A stretch of DNA of 41,573 nt from a virus, in the IMG/VR virus record IMGVR_UViG_3300048625_000197, positions 1-41,573 of that record, one strand, 5' to 3'. The notes below the pieces were generated by a model, which was not told where the DNA came from, made no database searches, and saw only the letters and a program-made list of their open reading frames with translations. Numbering within the stretch: the first letter of the stretch is position 1; each line of letters starts with the position of its first letter. Position numbers and translations under genes: made by a program. Below are positions 2,997-40,409 of the stretch, piece after piece.

Positions 2997-3002
2997 AGCT
3001 TA
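2997..3002 (-). promoter_or_regulatory. Putative leftward promoter (-10 TAAGCT)
   Basis: The minus strand reads ATGGTAAGCTAACCCC. TAAGCT fits the actinobacterial -10 form TANNNT and places a start near 2990, about 24 nt before the first leftward ATG and upstream of its AAGGAG. No consensus -35 is present at 17 nt. The word GGTA(A/C)GCTA recurs at three other intergenic positions. Inferred, not demonstrated. Confidence 0.4.
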
Positions 3003-3083
3003 CCATGCTCAGGGGAAAATGTGATCAAAAGCACCGGTAACAAGTGGGGGGGAGTGTGCTGGGCTGGACAAGATGATTCTTGG

Positions 3084-3089
3084 TACGCT
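3084..3089 (+). promoter_or_regulatory. Putative rightward promoter (-10 TACGCT)
   Basis: The plus strand reads TTGGTACGCTAATG, matching the shared intergenic word GGTA(A/C)GCTA. Transcription would start near 3096, about 80 nt before the first rightward gene at 3177. The -35 is not recognisable. An ACAAGTGG word lies 44 nt upstream (3040-3047); the same word lies 48 nt upstream of the related site at 4159. Confidence 0.4.
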
Positions 3090-3176
3090 AATGTGAAGAC
3101 ATAGCAACTTGATAACTACACAGCGAACACAGCCCTTCGGCGGACATACCTACACACAGTTGGGAGACTGACCAGT

Positions 3177-3329
3177 ATGGAAAACAGGGAACTAAACAGG
3201 AGCCTTCGACTTTCATGGGGAACCATGGACAGGCAGGCAAAGGAACTTGACCGAGTGCTAGCGATTTACAAAAGCGGGGACGCTGAGGAAATCGCAAGAC
3301 TTGAACAAGAATACGATTACCTAATCTAG
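3177..3329 (+). CDS. Small hypothetical protein, 50 aa, first rightward gene
   Basis: ATG at 3177 is preceded by GGGAG about 10 nt upstream within the leader AGTTGGGAGACT, which is repeated before the gene at 3420. The product is short, charged and almost wholly helical (MENRELNRSLRLSW, then KELDRVLAIY and EEIARLEQEY). It could be a small helical DNA- or protein-binding factor. No family recognised. Followed by a GC-rich hairpin without a T-run. Confidence 0.55.
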   Translation: MENRELNRSLRLSWGTMDRQAKELDRVLAIYKSGDAEEIARLEQEYDYLI

Positions 3330-3342
3330 TTGGCACGGCTCG

Positions 3343-3363
3343 CCCCGGTACTTGTGACCGGGG
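3343..3363 (+). terminator. GC-rich hairpin after the 50-aa gene
   Basis: CCCCGGT and ACCGGGG form a perfect 7-bp stem with a 7-nt loop. No T-run follows, so it may attenuate or process the transcript rather than end it. A second small stem (GGGCT/AGCCC) follows at 3370-3383. Confidence 0.4.
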
Positions 3364-3419
3364 TGGGTCGGGCTACCTAGCCCACACAATGCACCACCTA
3401 CCTAGTTGGGAGACTAGAA

Positions 3420-3848
3420 ATGTTCGAGAACCACGAAGAAACCCCCATCGTCCTCACCGAGAGCGACCGGGTAAGCGTCAAGCCAACGCCCGAAGCAGAA
3501 ATTGTTATCCGGGACGTGGTTATCAAAAGCCAGAAAATCACCATCGAAGACCTCACCACCATCGCCAACGCTTACATGAGCGTGATGCTTGAGTGGGGGC
3601 ACACCATCCCCGAGAACGTGAAGACTACCCTTCGCTCGCTTGAGGACATGGGCACCATCTCGGCACCTAAGAAGACCGTCACCATCGAGGGGGAGGTTAT
3701 CCGAACCTACAACTACAGCGTCGAGGTTGACATCCCCATCTTCGACGACGAAGAAGGCATCGACCACAACGACTTCGAAGATGAAATCATCGCTGAAGCC
3801 GAAGACACCTACGATGTCTACACAGAAATCCGCCCGAGCAACTACTAA
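3420..3848 (+). CDS. Acidic hypothetical protein, 142 aa
   Basis: ATG at 3420 follows the repeated leader AGTTGGGAGACT. The product is strongly acidic, with an Asp/Glu-rich C-terminus (FDDEEGIDHNDFEDEIIAEA). Residues 25-80 contain alternating beta strands and a helix (EDLTTIANAYMSVMLEWG), and VTIEGEVIRTYNYSVEVDI reads as a beta hairpin. Highly acidic early phage proteins are sometimes DNA mimics or inhibitors, but nothing here proves that. It has its own strong downstream hairpin, so it is probably a separate transcription unit. No family recognised. Confidence 0.65.
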   Translation: MFENHEETPIVLTESDRVSVKPTPEAEIVIRDVVIKSQKITIEDLTTIANAYMSVMLEWGHTIPENVKTTLRSLEDMGTISAPKKTVTIEGEVIRTYNYSVEVDIPIFDDEEGIDHNDFEDEIIAEAEDTYDVYTEIRPSNY

Positions 3849-3856
3849 CAACCAAC

Positions 3857-3878
3857 GGGGAGGGCGCAAGCCCTCCCC
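3857..3878 (+). terminator. Strong GNRA-capped hairpin
   Basis: GGGGAGGGC and GCCCTCCCC form a perfect 9-bp stem closed by the tetraloop GCAA, directly after the 142-residue gene. There is no clear T-run, so termination may be partial; an RNA-stability or attenuation role is also possible. Confidence 0.55.
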
Positions 3879-3902
3879 CCTATCCTTGAAGGGTTTCGGA
3901 TC

Positions 3903-4007
3903 ATGAAACTAACTAAGCGAGGCCGTATCGTCCTCATCTATATCCCCCTCACCGCCCTATGGCTTGCAGGATTCCTATACGCCTGTAGCCTCCCCGGAGC
4001 CCCCTAG
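3903..4007 (+). CDS. 34-residue membrane or lipoprotein-like peptide
   Basis: ATG at 3903, with GAAGGG about 8 nt upstream. The peptide has a basic N-terminus (MKLTKRGR), a hydrophobic core (IVLIYIPLTALWLAGFL) and then YACSLPGAP. LYAC resembles a lipobox, which would leave a 7-residue mature lipopeptide; alternatively it is a simple membrane-spanning peptide. It is flanked by two hairpins, the second a canonical terminator. Small early membrane or lipoproteins of phages sometimes block superinfection, but that is speculation here. Confidence 0.45.
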   Translation: MKLTKRGRIVLIYIPLTALWLAGFLYACSLPGAP

Positions 4008-4029
4008 AGTTGTCTCCCTAACCGGCACT

Positions 4030-4054
4030 AGCCCCCTCATCGAGGGGGCTTTTG
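4030..4054 (+). terminator. Rho-independent terminator
   Basis: AGCCCCCTC, loop ATC, GAGGGGGCT, then TTTTG: a perfect 9-bp GC-rich stem with a short T tail, 23 nt after the 34-residue gene. Confidence 0.8.
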
Positions 4055-4104
4055 TCGTTAGTCCGCGAGCGCGGAACTCGCTTCGCTCGTTCTTCTTTAT
4101 TGAT

Positions 4105-4128
4105 CTGGAAACAAGTGGACAATCAGGA
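4105..4128 (+). repeat. 24-bp direct repeat, copy 1
   Basis: The 24-bp word starting CTGGAAACAAGTGGAC and ending AATCAGGA is repeated exactly at 4437-4460. Both copies lie just after a terminator and before a promoter-like or structured region, as expected of an operator or activator site. Its core ACAAGTGG also occurs at 3040-3047 upstream of the first rightward promoter-like site. Confidence 0.85.
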
Positions 4129-4158
4129 GGCGCGTTTGGTGACTTGCGCAATATACGG

Positions 4159-4164
4159 TAAGCT
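4159..4164 (+). promoter_or_regulatory. Putative rightward promoter (-10 TAAGCT)
   Basis: The plus strand reads ACGGTAAGCTAATAG. A TTGGTG at 4136-4141 is 17 nt upstream and could serve as a -35. Transcription would start near 4171 and give a leader of about 38 nt for the 54-residue gene at 4209. The 24-bp repeat at 4105 lies immediately upstream. Confidence 0.45.
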
Positions 4165-4208
4165 AATAGCAACCCCTAAATCGACAGGGGCAGACAGTTA
4201 GGGAAACC

Positions 4209-4373
4209 ATGAGCTACACAGTTACAGCGACGAACGCCCGAGGCACCCAGTCGAAGACATTCACGGACAAGGACCGCGCCTTGCTAGTCGCAGAGTCCGC
4301 ATGGGAGGTCTACGGCGGAGATGTCGAGGTAGTAGATGAGAACGGAGACATCATCGCAGAGTTTGAGAGCTAG
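4209..4373 (+). CDS. Small hypothetical protein, 54 aa
   Basis: ATG at 4209 follows the leader AGTTAGGGAAACC. The 54-residue product has a beta-beta-alpha-beta pattern: MSYTVTATNARGTQ, then DKDRALLVAESAWEVYGG, then VEVVDENGDIIAEF. It is acidic and soluble. It forms its own unit between a promoter-like site and a strong terminator. No family recognised. Confidence 0.6.
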   Translation: MSYTVTATNARGTQSKTFTDKDRALLVAESAWEVYGGDVEVVDENGDIIAEFES

Positions 4374-4395
4374 CCCCCTAGCCCCCTAGCCAACT

Positions 4396-4423
4396 AGCCC
4401 CGGTTCCCCCTCCGGGGCTTTTT
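4396..4423 (+). terminator. Rho-independent terminator
   Basis: AGCCCCGG and CCGGGGCT form an 8-bp stem with an 8-nt loop, followed by a run of five T. It is preceded by tandem CTAGCCCC words (4369-4393). Confidence 0.8.
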
Positions 4424-4436
4424 GGTGCCCGCGAGC

Positions 4437-4460
4437 CTGGAAACAAGTGGACAATCAGGA
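4437..4460 (+). repeat. 24-bp direct repeat, copy 2
   Basis: Exact second copy of the word at 4105-4128. Six nt downstream lies the 14-bp palindrome at 4467, and a GGTACGG word occurs at 4496-4502, a partial match to the promoter-like word of the other sites. Confidence 0.85.
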
Positions 4461-4466
4461 AGCAGC

Positions 4467-4480
4467 AATCGTATACGATT
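4467..4480. promoter_or_regulatory. 14-bp perfect palindrome (operator-like)
   Basis: AATCGTATACGATT reads the same on both strands. Its length and position beside the 24-bp repeat suit a binding site for a dimeric HTH protein, such as the XRE-like product of 1879-2403. No other copy was noticed. Confidence 0.6.
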
Positions 4481-4555
4481 TGCAGGCAGGTTAGTGGTAC
4501 GGAAAAAGTCCGCGAGGTCTGTCGAGTTTTCTCGCAACCGAACTACCGGACATTC

Positions 4556-4582
4556 TGGCAAGTTTGGCAAGTCTGGCTAGTT
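4556..4582 (+). repeat. Three tandem 9-bp units
   Basis: TGGCAAGTT, TGGCAAGTC and TGGCTAGTT follow each other without spacers. They differ by one base each from the consensus. Iteron-like arrays of this size can bind replication or regulatory proteins. Confidence 0.7.
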
Positions 4583-4678
4583 TGAGCCCGCTCCGAAAAT
4601 TCCCACGATCAGAGCACACGCCCCGGTGAGCGAGCCCCGCCGTTAGGCGTGGGGGCGAGCGCGAGGGCGTGGGCATAA

Positions 4679-4711
4679 AAATAACCCCGGCTCATTCACC
4701 GGGGGTTATTT
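4679..4711. terminator. Bidirectional terminator
   Basis: AAATAACCCCGG and CCGGGGGTTATTT pair with one bulged G around an 8-nt loop. A-rich and T-rich flanks on the two sides allow termination in both directions. Confidence 0.75.
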
Positions 4712-4720
4712 CATATCAAT

Positions 4721-4765
4721 ATTATTGCGAGCACCGCCCTCTGTTAGGACGGTACTCGCAATAAT
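4721..4765 (-). ncRNA. 20-bp stem-loop, fully paired only as minus-strand RNA
   Basis: The arms 4721-4740 and 4746-4765 flank a 5-nt loop. As plus-strand RNA they have two C/A mismatches; as minus-strand RNA both positions become G.U pairs and all 20 positions pair. This suggests a leftward transcript whose structure matters. It may be a processed RNA element, an antisense or leader element, or a cruciform at an origin. The structure is seen directly; its transcription is inferred. Confidence 0.45.
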
Positions 4766-4789
4766 TAAGGGTGTCAAAGTAATGCATAA

Positions 4790-4799
4790 ACATATTGTC
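4790..4799 (+). repeat. ACATATTGTC word, copy 1
   Basis: ACATATTGTC here recurs at 4868-4877. AGTAATGCA at 4778-4786 and TGCATTACT at 4879-4887 form a matching 9-bp inverted pair, so the whole AT-rich tract is bounded by related elements. Confidence 0.6.
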
Positions 4800-4864
4800 G
4801 TTATTACCGTTTATTGCCCTATGTTTGTCTCGAAAAAAACTTTTCATATTTCTTTGCAATATTG

Positions 4865-4895
4865 TTGACATATTGTCTTGCATTACTGCTAGACT
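4865..4895 (+). promoter_or_regulatory. Putative early promoter with overlapping operator-like repeat
   Basis: TTGACA (4865-4870) is a perfect -35. TAGACT (4890-4895) is a possible -10, but the 19-nt spacing is longer than ideal. An A-run and T-rich tract upstream (4832-4855) could act as an UP element. GACATATTGTC (4867-4877), an 11-bp inverted repeat, overlaps the -35 and could hold a repressor. It would drive the small-gene operon from 4970. Confidence 0.45.
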
Positions 4896-4969
4896 TTTCA
4901 CGTGGGGCAGGTAGCCCCCAAGACTTCGGAACCGATACCCGAAGAACCGACACAGAAAGTTAGGACACC

Positions 4970-5314
4970 ATGAGCAACGAAGACGCAACCAAGATGGCGG
5001 ACTCCATCAGCCGTGAACTGTACACCTACGCGGAAGACGGCAACGTATTCGGCATTGACGAAGACACGCAAGAAGAGGCAACCGCCTACGACTACCTAGA
5101 AGACGCGCTAGACATCGAGTACCGCGTCGGCTCAGACGGTAAGTACCGTTCAGCTAAAGTGCTCACCGGCTGGGGTGGTCCGAATGTATGGATTGACACC
5201 GCCCGCCAGCAGGTAGCCGTGGCCTGGTACTGCGAGCCGGTATACCGTGACCTACCCGTCGAGTTCTGCAACGAACTAGACGAAGCACTTGCCGAACTCT
5301 GGTCAATCCGATGA
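4970..5314 (+). CDS. Hypothetical acidic protein with GGPNVWIDT motif
   Basis: 114 residues; ATG after the leader AGTTAGGACACC, a form shared with the genes at 4209 and 13512. The N-terminal 45 residues are acidic and helical (YAEDGNVFGIDEDTQEEATA, YDYLEDAL). The C-terminal half has VLTGWGGPNVWIDTARQQV, a WYCEP turn, and a final helix (CNELDEALAELW). I recall small phage proteins with a similar GGPN-x-W-x-DT core but cannot name the family. First gene of the packed small-gene operon, so an early host-takeover or counter-defence role is plausible but unproven. Confidence 0.65.
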   Translation: MSNEDATKMADSISRELYTYAEDGNVFGIDEDTQEEATAYDYLEDALDIEYRVGSDGKYRSAKVLTGWGGPNVWIDTARQQVAVAWYCEPVYRDLPVEFCNELDEALAELWSIR

Positions 5315-5421
5315 GCACGTGCGCTTATCCCGGCACCAACCACAGCCCGGACACCGTAGCCGTTTACGACGGCAACCCGACACCGACCATTCTTTGCGGA
5401 TATCACGCAAGCACCCACTAA
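5311..5421 (+). CDS. Small protein, 36 aa
   Basis: ATG overlaps the preceding stop as ATGA. The sequence starts MSTCAYPGTNHSPDTVAVYD and ends CGYHASTH, with two Cys and three His that could hold one metal ion. Its codon use resembles that of its neighbours. Function unknown. Confidence 0.45.
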   Translation: MSTCAYPGTNHSPDTVAVYDGNPTPTILCGYHASTH

Positions 5422-5443
5422 CACAGAACAGGACACCGACACC

Positions 5444-5869
5444 GTGAACACATTCACTAAAGCTTGGGACATTAAGGCTTACACGCTGGACGGCTCGGCA
5501 TATTGCAAGGCGTGCGCCGAAGACGGCGACGCGGGCATATTCGGTCAGCCGGTATTCGAGAGCGACGAAGCTCACGGCATGACGTGCGACTCCTGCCGTC
5601 ATTACATTGACGAGCCGGAGCGCATCGAAGTGAATGACCAGCGAGCCCGTGCCACTGCTGAAGTTGGCGGTGACTACTACATAGAGGTAGCCCGTGCCGA
5701 AAGTAAATGGGTAGTCACCGAATACCACCGGATTACAGGGTACCCGTGGTATCAGGCAACATACCGCACACTAGGGCGAGCCATTGCCGACGCTAACACA
5801 CGCCTAGCTGAAGAGCAGGACGCGAGCGGTATCGCTCACCCACAATTCACCTCAAAGAAGGGCAACTAA
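5444..5869 (+). CDS. Zinc-ribbon hypothetical protein, 141 aa
   Basis: GTG start at 5444, preceded by an AGGACACC leader but with wide spacing. Residues 21-24 (CKAC) and 48-51 (CDSC) form a CxxC-x23-CxxC pattern, a probable structural zinc site, followed by H53. The C-terminal half has a beta/alpha pattern (GGDYYIEVARAESKWVV, then RTLGRAIADANTRL). Its stop overlaps the next ATG as TAATG. No family recognised beyond the zinc knuckle. Confidence 0.65.
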   Translation: MNTFTKAWDIKAYTLDGSAYCKACAEDGDAGIFGQPVFESDEAHGMTCDSCRHYIDEPERIEVNDQRARATAEVGGDYYIEVARAESKWVVTEYHRITGYPWYQATYRTLGRAIADANTRLAEEQDASGIAHPQFTSKKGN

Positions 5870-6144
5870 TGATTACGTTAACGACAGACCAGTGGCTTGA
5901 AGAGTTCGAGCCGATTCAGAATCCACGCTCAAAAGATACCGGATACTGGGGCGCGTTCTTTGACTCCGCTAACGGCGACGACAATAACTTTATCCATGAG
6001 CATGCAAGCAAGTTCACAGTGTGGACGGTAGTCGATGATGAAGGCACGTACACGCGCATAGTATCGGGCGAGCACTGGGCAGACAGGCTTGGCTACTTTC
6101 TGACTGATGCTACGCCTACCGATTACACGGAGGTGACACGATGA
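5869..6144 (+). CDS. Hypothetical protein, 91 aa
   Basis: TAATG overlap with the previous gene. Acidic and soluble, with aromatic-rich strands: WLEEFEPIQN, GYWGAFFDSANGDDNNFIHE, FTVWTVVDDEGTYTRIVSG and a C-terminal GYFLTDATP. The spacing suggests a small alpha/beta or beta-barrel fold. Part of the coupled small-gene block. Unknown function. Confidence 0.65.
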   Translation: MITLTTDQWLEEFEPIQNPRSKDTGYWGAFFDSANGDDNNFIHEHASKFTVWTVVDDEGTYTRIVSGEHWADRLGYFLTDATPTDYTEVTR

Positions 6145-6425
6145 GAGAGTGCCCTAACCACGAAGGGGCTTTTGATTGCACCCCGTTCTGTCCCCTATGT
6201 GCGGGACAGCAGGAATTACCCATTGATCGGAGCACGGTTACTAGCACTAAGCGGTTAGAACGCATGCTTGAAGACTTGATGAACCTATCCGACGACTTGC
6301 GTCGACGAGCGACAGAAGACAAGTTACCTTTGTCTGCCCGTTACCATGCAGGCAGGGCTGAGGCCTTTGCCACTGCACTCTTCCACGTCCAAGAAACAAA
6401 CAACAAGAGCCATGGAGGCGAATAG
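6141..6425 (+). CDS. Hypothetical protein with N-terminal zinc knuckle, 94 aa
   Basis: ATGA overlap with the preceding gene. The N-terminus MRECPNHEGAFDCTPFCPLC holds C4, H7, C13, C17 and C20, a probable zinc-binding knuckle. Then comes a long charged helical region (RLERMLEDLMNLSDDLRRRA, and HAGRAEAFATALFHVQE). The knuckle plus helix layout suits a small nucleic-acid- or protein-binding adaptor. Function unknown. Confidence 0.65.
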   Translation: MRECPNHEGAFDCTPFCPLCAGQQELPIDRSTVTSTKRLERMLEDLMNLSDDLRRRATEDKLPLSARYHAGRAEAFATALFHVQETNNKSHGGE

Positions 6426-6428
6426 AAA

Positions 6429-6629
6429 ATGTCAATCAACAAAATGAAAGAGTACATTCTGGAGCTGGAAAACACGATTCTGTGCATGGCTCAGACCGCG
6501 CTGGACATCGAGGTGCCTACCGGTGAGAACACGGAGGCCGTCGAGTTTCTGGTGAAACGCACTAGCAACCCCAGCGTGCTGGCTGACGCGAAAGAGTTTC
6601 TGGTTGAGATTGAGGAGAGTGGTTACTAA
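6429..6629 (+). CDS. Hypothetical helical protein, 66 aa
   Basis: ATG 3 nt after the previous stop. Two helices (MKEYILELENTILCMAQTAL and SVLADAKEFLVEIEES) flank a short loop. Acidic. The TAATG overlap couples it to the next gene. No family recognised. Confidence 0.6.
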   Translation: MSINKMKEYILELENTILCMAQTALDIEVPTGENTEAVEFLVKRTSNPSVLADAKEFLVEIEESGY

Positions 6630-6964
6630 TGGAAACGCAATATGACCTGAACATTTGGGATTACGGCACGCATAATGGCAATGACCCACAGTGGCGCATC
6701 TCAGTTCACCAGCTCGAATACGCGACTGATGGACACGTGCAGTGTGGGCAGTGGATTGAGGGAACTCATCTCGATCTCACTGACGACGAGGTAGTAGACC
6801 TAACGCTGGGCTGGGAGCCTGAGCTGGGGGGCGACTACTCATGCGATAGTGACTTTTTTCTAGATAGCGATAGCTTCTTCGACATCTACAAGAGTATCCC
6901 TCAGCGTGTGGCGGACTTCGTTCACTCGCTCCCCCCTTACACGATGAAAGATTGGAGAAAGTAA
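6629..6964 (+). CDS. Hypothetical acidic protein, 111 aa
   Basis: TAATG overlaps at both ends. The protein is acidic and aromatic: METQYDLNIWDYG, QWRISVHQLEYATDGHVQCG, then DDEVVDLTLGWEP, an Asp-rich stretch (CDSDFFLDSDSFFDIY) and PPYTMKDWRK. The beta-rich first half and acidic loop suggest a small globular protein. No motif assigned. Confidence 0.65.
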   Translation: METQYDLNIWDYGTHNGNDPQWRISVHQLEYATDGHVQCGQWIEGTHLDLTDDEVVDLTLGWEPELGGDYSCDSDFFLDSDSFFDIYKSIPQRVADFVHSLPPYTMKDWRK

Positions 6965-7434
6965 TGGCTGTATTCACTAGCAAGCGATTGCAAGCATCGG
7001 TGCTCGATACTATGCGCATGATTGGCGAGCCTATGTCGGTTACGGAACTATCTAAGGTGATTGGCAAGTCTCGACAGGCTGTACGGCATGCGCTACAGGA
7101 ATCGGGGGCTGTCGTGATTGATGACTCGCGCCCGGTGCTGTGGGCTTTGCCCGAGGGCATGAGCATCACGAAGCGGGTACCGGGCAAGCACAATGAGGTT
7201 GAGTATGTTGTCTCGACTAAGGCATCGAGCAACTTCGTGGATATCTGGAACAAGCAACGCGAGAAGATTGGCGCGTCGATCACTGGGTTAGCTATTGAAC
7301 CAAGCACTGACCCCGGCGACATGGCGGTACAGCTCGGCTCGCTGGCTGGCAGTTTGGCTGCTTTGGCCTACGACTTGGAGCAGGTAAAGAACATGCCTGA
7401 CTGGTACGAAATTCTCACAGAGGAGGTAAGCTAA
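6964..7434 (+). CDS. Winged-helix DNA-binding protein
   Basis: 156 residues from ATG at 6964, which has GGAG 6-7 nt upstream and overlaps the preceding TAA; a TTG 12 nt earlier (6952) is less likely. Residues 10-55 read as a winged HTH: SVLDTMRMIGEPMSVTELSK, then IGKSRQAVRHALQESGAVVI, a MarR/ArsR-like helix 2-turn-helix 3 with a wing. The rest is a helical C-terminal region (ISITGLAI to LEQVKNMPDWYEIL) that could mediate oligomerisation. A regulator of early or middle transcription is likely; the target is unknown. Confidence 0.7.
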   Translation: MAVFTSKRLQASVLDTMRMIGEPMSVTELSKVIGKSRQAVRHALQESGAVVIDDSRPVLWALPEGMSITKRVPGKHNEVEYVVSTKASSNFVDIWNKQREKIGASITGLAIEPSTDPGDMAVQLGSLAGSLAALAYDLEQVKNMPDWYEILTEEVS

Positions 7435-10418: not shown

Positions 10419-10456
10419 GCGGAGCCGGGACTGCCCCTAACCATTCCCGGCTCCGC
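10419..10456 (+). terminator. Intergenic 12-bp stem hairpin
   Basis: GCGGAGCCGGGA and TCCCGGCTCCGC form a perfect 12-bp stem with a 14-nt loop. No T-run follows (C-run, then A-rich), so it may be partial or may protect the 3' end of the transcript. It divides the Snf2/HNH genes from the exonuclease/recombination genes. Confidence 0.6.
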
Positions 10457-40288: not shown

Positions 40289-40296
40289 CCAAAAAG

Positions 40297-40325
40297 AAAT
40301 CCCCCGGCCTATTACCGGGGGATTT
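40297..40325. terminator. Bidirectional terminator after the lysis genes
   Basis: AAATCCCCCGG and CCGGGGGATTT pair perfectly over 11 bp around a 7-nt loop, with T-rich flanks on both strands. For the leftward arm it ends the terS-lysis unit. Confidence 0.85.
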
Positions 40326-40328
40326 TCT

Positions 40329-40409
40329 TTACTGGCAACTATCGCACTGCATCGCGTCCATCGGATCGATGGGGCATGCGTAGCCACCTACGGTGTCAAC
40401 TGAGTCCAT
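40329..40409 (-). CDS. 26-residue Cys peptide (CPIDPMD type)
   Basis: ATG at 40409; its AAGGA is formed by the last codons of the upstream holin gene. Sequence features: MDSVDTVGGYACPIDPMDAM, then QCDSCQ, with C12, C22 and C25. I recall tiny peptides with a CP-x-DPMD-x-x-QC-x-SCQ core in actinophage genomes, often missed in annotation. Probably metal-binding; function unknown. Confidence 0.6.
   Translation of the reverse strand: MDSVDTVGGYACPIDPMDAMQCDSCQ

Follow-up and report, generated by a model that had tools for sequence, protein, structure and literature searches.

The window, the whole stretch of 41,573 bases that was analysed, is a virus record in which polymerase, primase-helicase, helicase, terminase and portal genes were found. 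Its best annotated matches were Microbacterium phage Shocker, the Arthrobacter Jasminevirus group (cluster AV: Jasmine, Adat, Brad, GurgleFerb, Nellie and Casserole) and Cellulosimicrobium phage DS1. The terminase is 48.8% identical to that of Shocker, against about 40.8% for Jasminevirus. Jasmine itself has been described as a podovirus (PMC5513430). The early genes start at about 3.2-3.4 kb and run rightward; the late genes run leftward. Ahead of the main early operon lies a gap of 596 bp (positions 4374-4969), bounded by the stop codon of an ORF of 54 aa and the ATG at 4970. The preliminary description had listed repeats, a palindrome, tandem 9-mers, a bidirectional terminator, a long stem-loop and an AT-rich tract with repeated words in this gap, and all of them are present (Table 1). 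Four ORFs of 52-88 aa within the gap gave no tblastn match with E < 0.01 in 16 related sequences, and three flanking control genes likewise gave none.

Table 1 Features of the gap and of the adjoining early region (positions in the window).
Feature	Position	Strand	Remarks
First box, degenerate, GGTAACAAGTGGG with GGACAAGATGATT downstream	3036-3048	+	Candidate left end of terminal repeat near 3034
Second box, GGAAACAAGTGGA	4107-4119	+	After terminator, before -10-like TAAGCT (4159-4164) and ORF 4209-4373
Terminator of upstream unit	4396-4424	+	Stem 4396-4419 plus T run; equivalent in G004
Third box, GGAAACAAGTGGA	4439-4451	+	Last before hairpins; equivalents in relatives
14-bp perfect palindrome, AATCGTATACGATT	4467-4480		G004 has GATCGTATACGATC at equivalent place
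Three tandem 9-mers, TGGCAAGTT/TGGCAAGTC/TGGCTAGTT	4556-4582	+	15/18 period matches
Irregular hairpin A, GCC-GTTA-GGC tip	4614-4674	+	Predicted fold
Terminator-like hairpin	4679-4711	both	Stem 4685-4704, scored as terminator on each strand
Long hairpin B	4721-4765		Candidate inner boundary of terminal repeat; predicted end in loop near 4740-4746
AT-rich tract with operator-like repeats	4766-4864	+	ACATATTGTC at 4790-4799
Promoter-like TTGACA-N19-TAGACT, main early operon	4865-4895	+	Consensus-like
Leader with two short hairpins (4904-4918, 4924-4944)	4896-4969	+	Read from sequence, unscored
First ORF of main early operon, 114 aa	4970-5314	+	

The individual elements differ in how far they exceed chance. 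The tandem 9-mers do so clearly, as none of 300 shuffles reached 15/18 period matches; tandem 10-mers occupy the same place in G003 (by reading, unscored). Long stems are also rare: with one defect tolerated, stems of 14 or more pairs number two in the window against one in total in 20 shuffled windows. The palindrome alone is within chance (14-bp perfect palindromes number five in the window), as are the AT-tract repeats of the window taken alone (p = 0.145 for direct and 0.10 for inverted repeats), and both carry weight only through their retention in relatives. Hairpin A, possibly a small structured RNA on the basis of its predicted fold, has similar folds in several relatives. Its alignment gave no consensus fold beyond two pairs, and consequently no covariation is claimed for it. 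A scan of the window against Rfam gave no match at the gathering score, the best weak match in the block being BSnc120 (17.4 bits against 114).

The orthologous gap was compared in 11 related sequences (G003, G004, G005, G006, G008, G009, L065, L068, L069, L070 and L081), and two more (G011, and G012, also designated L072) extend only to the hairpin, where both contigs stop. Nine of the sequences (G003-G006, G008, G009, G011, G012 and L065) had been retrieved through the polymerase or helicase and L068-L070 through the box described below; L073 has the same sequence as L068 and was left out of the counts. L081 was retrieved only by its hairpin pattern and is thus not an independent case. A distant DNA search of the named phages with window positions 3000-7000 gave no match, and a 141-aa early ORF used as query found no relatives. 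Two more distant relatives were also tried: Gordonia phage BigChungus, which has a different gene order, and MW202795, in which no CAACAT motif was found in the stretch searched and the hairpins could not be placed.

The gap is not a random spacer. The relatives hold the same order of parts, namely terminator, box, irregular hairpin, long hairpin, AT-rich tract and early-operon promoter, while the sequences of stems, repeats and flanking genes have changed between them. Conservation in related phages, to which the preliminary description had looked for confirmation, was thus found in the arrangement of the region and not in its letters, the words having changed. Relatives of the 114-aa gene that opens the main early operon occur at 11 loci in phages that otherwise differ, yet the 16 related sequences gave no match with E < 0.01; this pattern suggests that genes next to the block are exchanged and that its layout persists. 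Phages that share only this gene (L004-L014) have the long hairpin in 0 of 11 loci.

The long hairpin, hairpin B, was found in 13 of 13 orthologous gaps read, in addition to the window. Its stem covaries: across 11 aligned rows, 14 of 18 pairs are changed on both sides, and the covariation score was 0.469, compared with 0.126 for shuffled and at most 0.231 for slid alignments, in a set that includes L081, found by its hairpin. Classified by eye, the 5' arm of the stem has one extra base, in most cases 7-9 pairs away from the loop, in G005, G006, G008, L068, L070, G012, L081 and DS1, and L069, Shocker and Jasmine/Adat have a 5' bulge at other distances. L065 has one mismatch, the window has two C-A mismatches, and G003, G004 and G009 have no defect (G011 was not classified). 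A T run is mostly absent from hairpin B.

Immediately past hairpin B, GC content falls to 0.35 over 150 nt, compared with 0.50 for the window. Direct repeats in this tract, assessed in eight genomes with 200 shuffles each, reached p <= 0.005 in G003, G004, G008, L070 and L081, 0.04 in Shocker and 0.055 in L065. The word ACATATTGTC occurs twice in this part of the window, its second copy (4868-4877) overlapping the -35 hexamer, and in several relatives direct repeats lie 57-66 bp apart with the second copy near -35; these paired repeats may be operators. At window positions 6952-7434 a helix-turn-helix domain was matched weakly (HTH_20, E = 0.0035, which does not reach the curated cut-off), and this product could be a regulator acting on the AT-tract repeats. 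A standard promoter scan found no promoter at 4865-4895 because the spacing is too long for that scan. Equivalents lie at the same distance from the hairpin in G004 (TTTACA-N19-TACCTT) and G003 (TTGACA-N16-TATTGT), the promoter-like sites of the window, G004, G003, L065 and Shocker being 92-99 nt past the hairpin. Other relatives have them 53 to 221 nt past it, and none was found after the hairpin of DS1; several of all these sites are weak. The leaders of G004 and G003 likewise contain two hairpins, of different sequence (by reading). The earlier suggestion of a master control region therefore stands only in part, as a consensus-like promoter upstream of the main early operon within a layout kept in relatives.

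Three boxes related to GGAAnCAArTGGA precede the hairpins of the window. Box 1 is degenerate, with two mismatches to this pattern, and is degenerate in G004 too. Boxes with at most one mismatch are confined to the interval between box 1 and hairpin B except for two strays (L053:2246 and L070:13782); L081 has no box at the one-mismatch threshold. The box was also considered as a host promoter motif. A scan of bacterial genomes (genome_contigs) gave 31 matches in scattered bacteria, about 30 being expected by chance on our own estimate from the information in the pattern, and the box therefore looks phage-specific at the sequence level.

Genome ends are recorded for some sequenced relatives. In eight metagenomic genomes, among them the window, the first box can be aligned with the recorded left ends of Shocker, Jasmine and Adat, and CAA[CG]AT is present in 11 of 11 rows of this alignment; the recorded left end of Casserole is 7 nt further in. 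Exact terminal repeats were found of 1330 (Jasmine), 1551 (Adat), 1549 (Brad), 1558 (Casserole), 1550 (GurgleFerb) and 1551 bp (Nellie), the lengths for Jasmine, Adat, GurgleFerb and Nellie agreeing with published tables (PMC5513430, PMC5794937). In each of these six Jasminevirus records (Arthrobacter podoviruses, repeats 1.33-1.56 kb long) the repeat has its inner edge within the loop of the hairpin that corresponds to hairpin B. Since the six are close relatives, they amount to one or two independent observations. Four genomes were tested for folding stability, and in each the 90-nt stretch at this boundary ranks within the top 1.7-2.8%. Jasminevirus resembles the window in its related polymerase and terminase, its opposed early and late arms and the long hairpin in the gap that precedes the main early operon. 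It differs in having tandem GGATA-type words instead of operator-like pairs, in its boxes and in an Lsr2-like gene within the repeat, and no sequence similarity was evident between its hairpins and that of the window.

Shocker provides the seventh fixed repeat end, also of a direct terminal repeat, and is the main contrary fact. It is the best-scoring annotated match for polymerase and terminase, and it shares the box type, a similar left end, and a bulged hairpin with an AT-rich tract before an early operon. Its repeat of 484 bp nonetheless ends at 44948, about 450 bp from the hairpin near 44465-44498, at a boundary that is unstructured and has no strong fold, so that the loop rule fails in Shocker although this phage is closer to the window by terminase than Jasminevirus is.

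Metagenomic contig ends were also compared. Among 38 termini of 19 related contigs, two (the end of G011 and the start of G012) coincide with the 3' edge of hairpin B, and the start of G010 lies just past a terminator, where a box is expected; neither end of the window showed such a feature. Folds as strong as those at the contig breaks occur in 0.67% of random 50-nt stretches, and both breaks could reflect assembly trouble at a strong hairpin. A scan of 40 terminase loci revealed no further terminus at the hairpin, and the end sequences of three contigs, which stop some 6.9 kb upstream of the terminase, have neither a box nor a strong fold. The window has no exact terminal repeat, as is expected of a collapsed contig. 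One contig, IMGVR_UViG_3300043469_000360 (48,903 bp), carries the same late region twice (L194:1-7691 and L195:4740-11449) at about 86% identity, and since its two ends share this region it seems to join two strains.

The kept layout, the loop boundary in Jasminevirus, the left ends at box 1 and the two contig stops together suggest that a terminal repeat has its inner boundary in the block. On balance it is probably a conserved junction between the end of the repeat and the main early promoter, with a repeat of about 1.7 kb in the phage of the window. The direct terminal repeat would begin near 3034, at box 1, and end near 4743, in the loop of hairpin B; with the same two marks, repeats of 1.6-2.7 kb are obtained in the eight metagenomic genomes. 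It would carry small genes in short units, each with its own terminator, box and promoter, and these genes may be the first expressed. Hairpin B would form the inner end, the cutting of concatemers for packaging producing one mature end in its loop, and the AT-rich tract and promoter just beyond would start the main early (replication) operon. By comparison of sequences, the phage of the window may thus have the same ends as Jasminevirus, and packaging proteins may recognise the boxes and hairpin B. In favour of this reading, the same order of parts recurs in relatives mostly picked without using the hairpin. Cobaviruses offer a precedent, an ORF-free gap between gene modules matching their terminal repeat (PMC6775973).

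The same features could instead constitute a purely transcriptional switch, in which the small first units and the main early promoter are insulated from each other by terminators and hairpin B, the paired repeats are operators of a phage regulator, and the genome ends lie elsewhere. Terminators ahead of most boxes with -10-like sites after them, the 92-99 nt placement of promoter-like sites in five genomes, the repeat copies near -35 and the distant repeat end of Shocker are all consistent with such a switch. It nevertheless seems rather unlikely: hairpin B mostly lacks a T run, the six Jasminevirus loop boundaries and the contig breaks would be coincidence, and the box is unlike a host motif. 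The preliminary description had also proposed a replication origin. In its favour, the AT-rich tract carries iteron-like repeats and adjoins a hairpin, and the helicase, primase and polymerase genes lie downstream. Cumulative GC skew does not support an origin, being flat across the block (-0.42, -0.41 and -0.45 per kb) with its minimum near 25.5 kb; the repeats, moreover, differ between relatives and the second copy sits at -35. An origin here is accordingly quite improbable.

The first-expressed genes of T5 lie in its terminal repeat, which is associated with structured noncoding DNA (PMC13250531). By analogy, small genes inside a predicted repeat with a structured noncoding border might indicate a stop in a two-step injection, which we regard as highly improbable here. 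The predicted repeat of the window is much shorter than that of T5, and T5 is not a podovirus. The relatives of the window are podoviruses (PMC5794937).

To our knowledge, the duplication and cutting of long terminal repeats are poorly understood outside T7. The concatemer hairpin of T7 is a processing intermediate, whereas in Jasminevirus it is the recorded mature end that lies in the hairpin loop. A hairpin in T7 DNA with the terminal repeat has been linked to repeat duplication (PMC4281155, citing Chung and Hinkle 1990). For the repeat boundary proposed here, a more speculative and rather doubtful extension is that the mature end is made inside the hairpin: strand-displacement synthesis would duplicate the terminal repeat, the strand would fold back at hairpin B, and opening of the loop would give the packaged end. 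In this scheme the extra base that most relatives keep in the 5' arm would serve for recognition, and the role of the boxes would go beyond transcription to directing the packaging enzyme. No description of a hairpin where the repeat of these phages ends was found in a literature search, and the word 'hairpin' does not occur in the available text of PMC5513430. A hairpin whose loop coincides with the recorded end in one genus and whose stem covaries in the wider family provides a cut-site model that can be tested in actinobacterial podoviruses, and it offers a means of predicting genome ends for metagenomic contigs that have none mapped. Other hairpins were also observed. The AT-rich tracts of G005, G006 and L068 contain an extra one, TGAGTCC-loop-GGACTCA, downstream of hairpin B, and in the window further long hairpins lie at 10419-10456 and 40293-40330.
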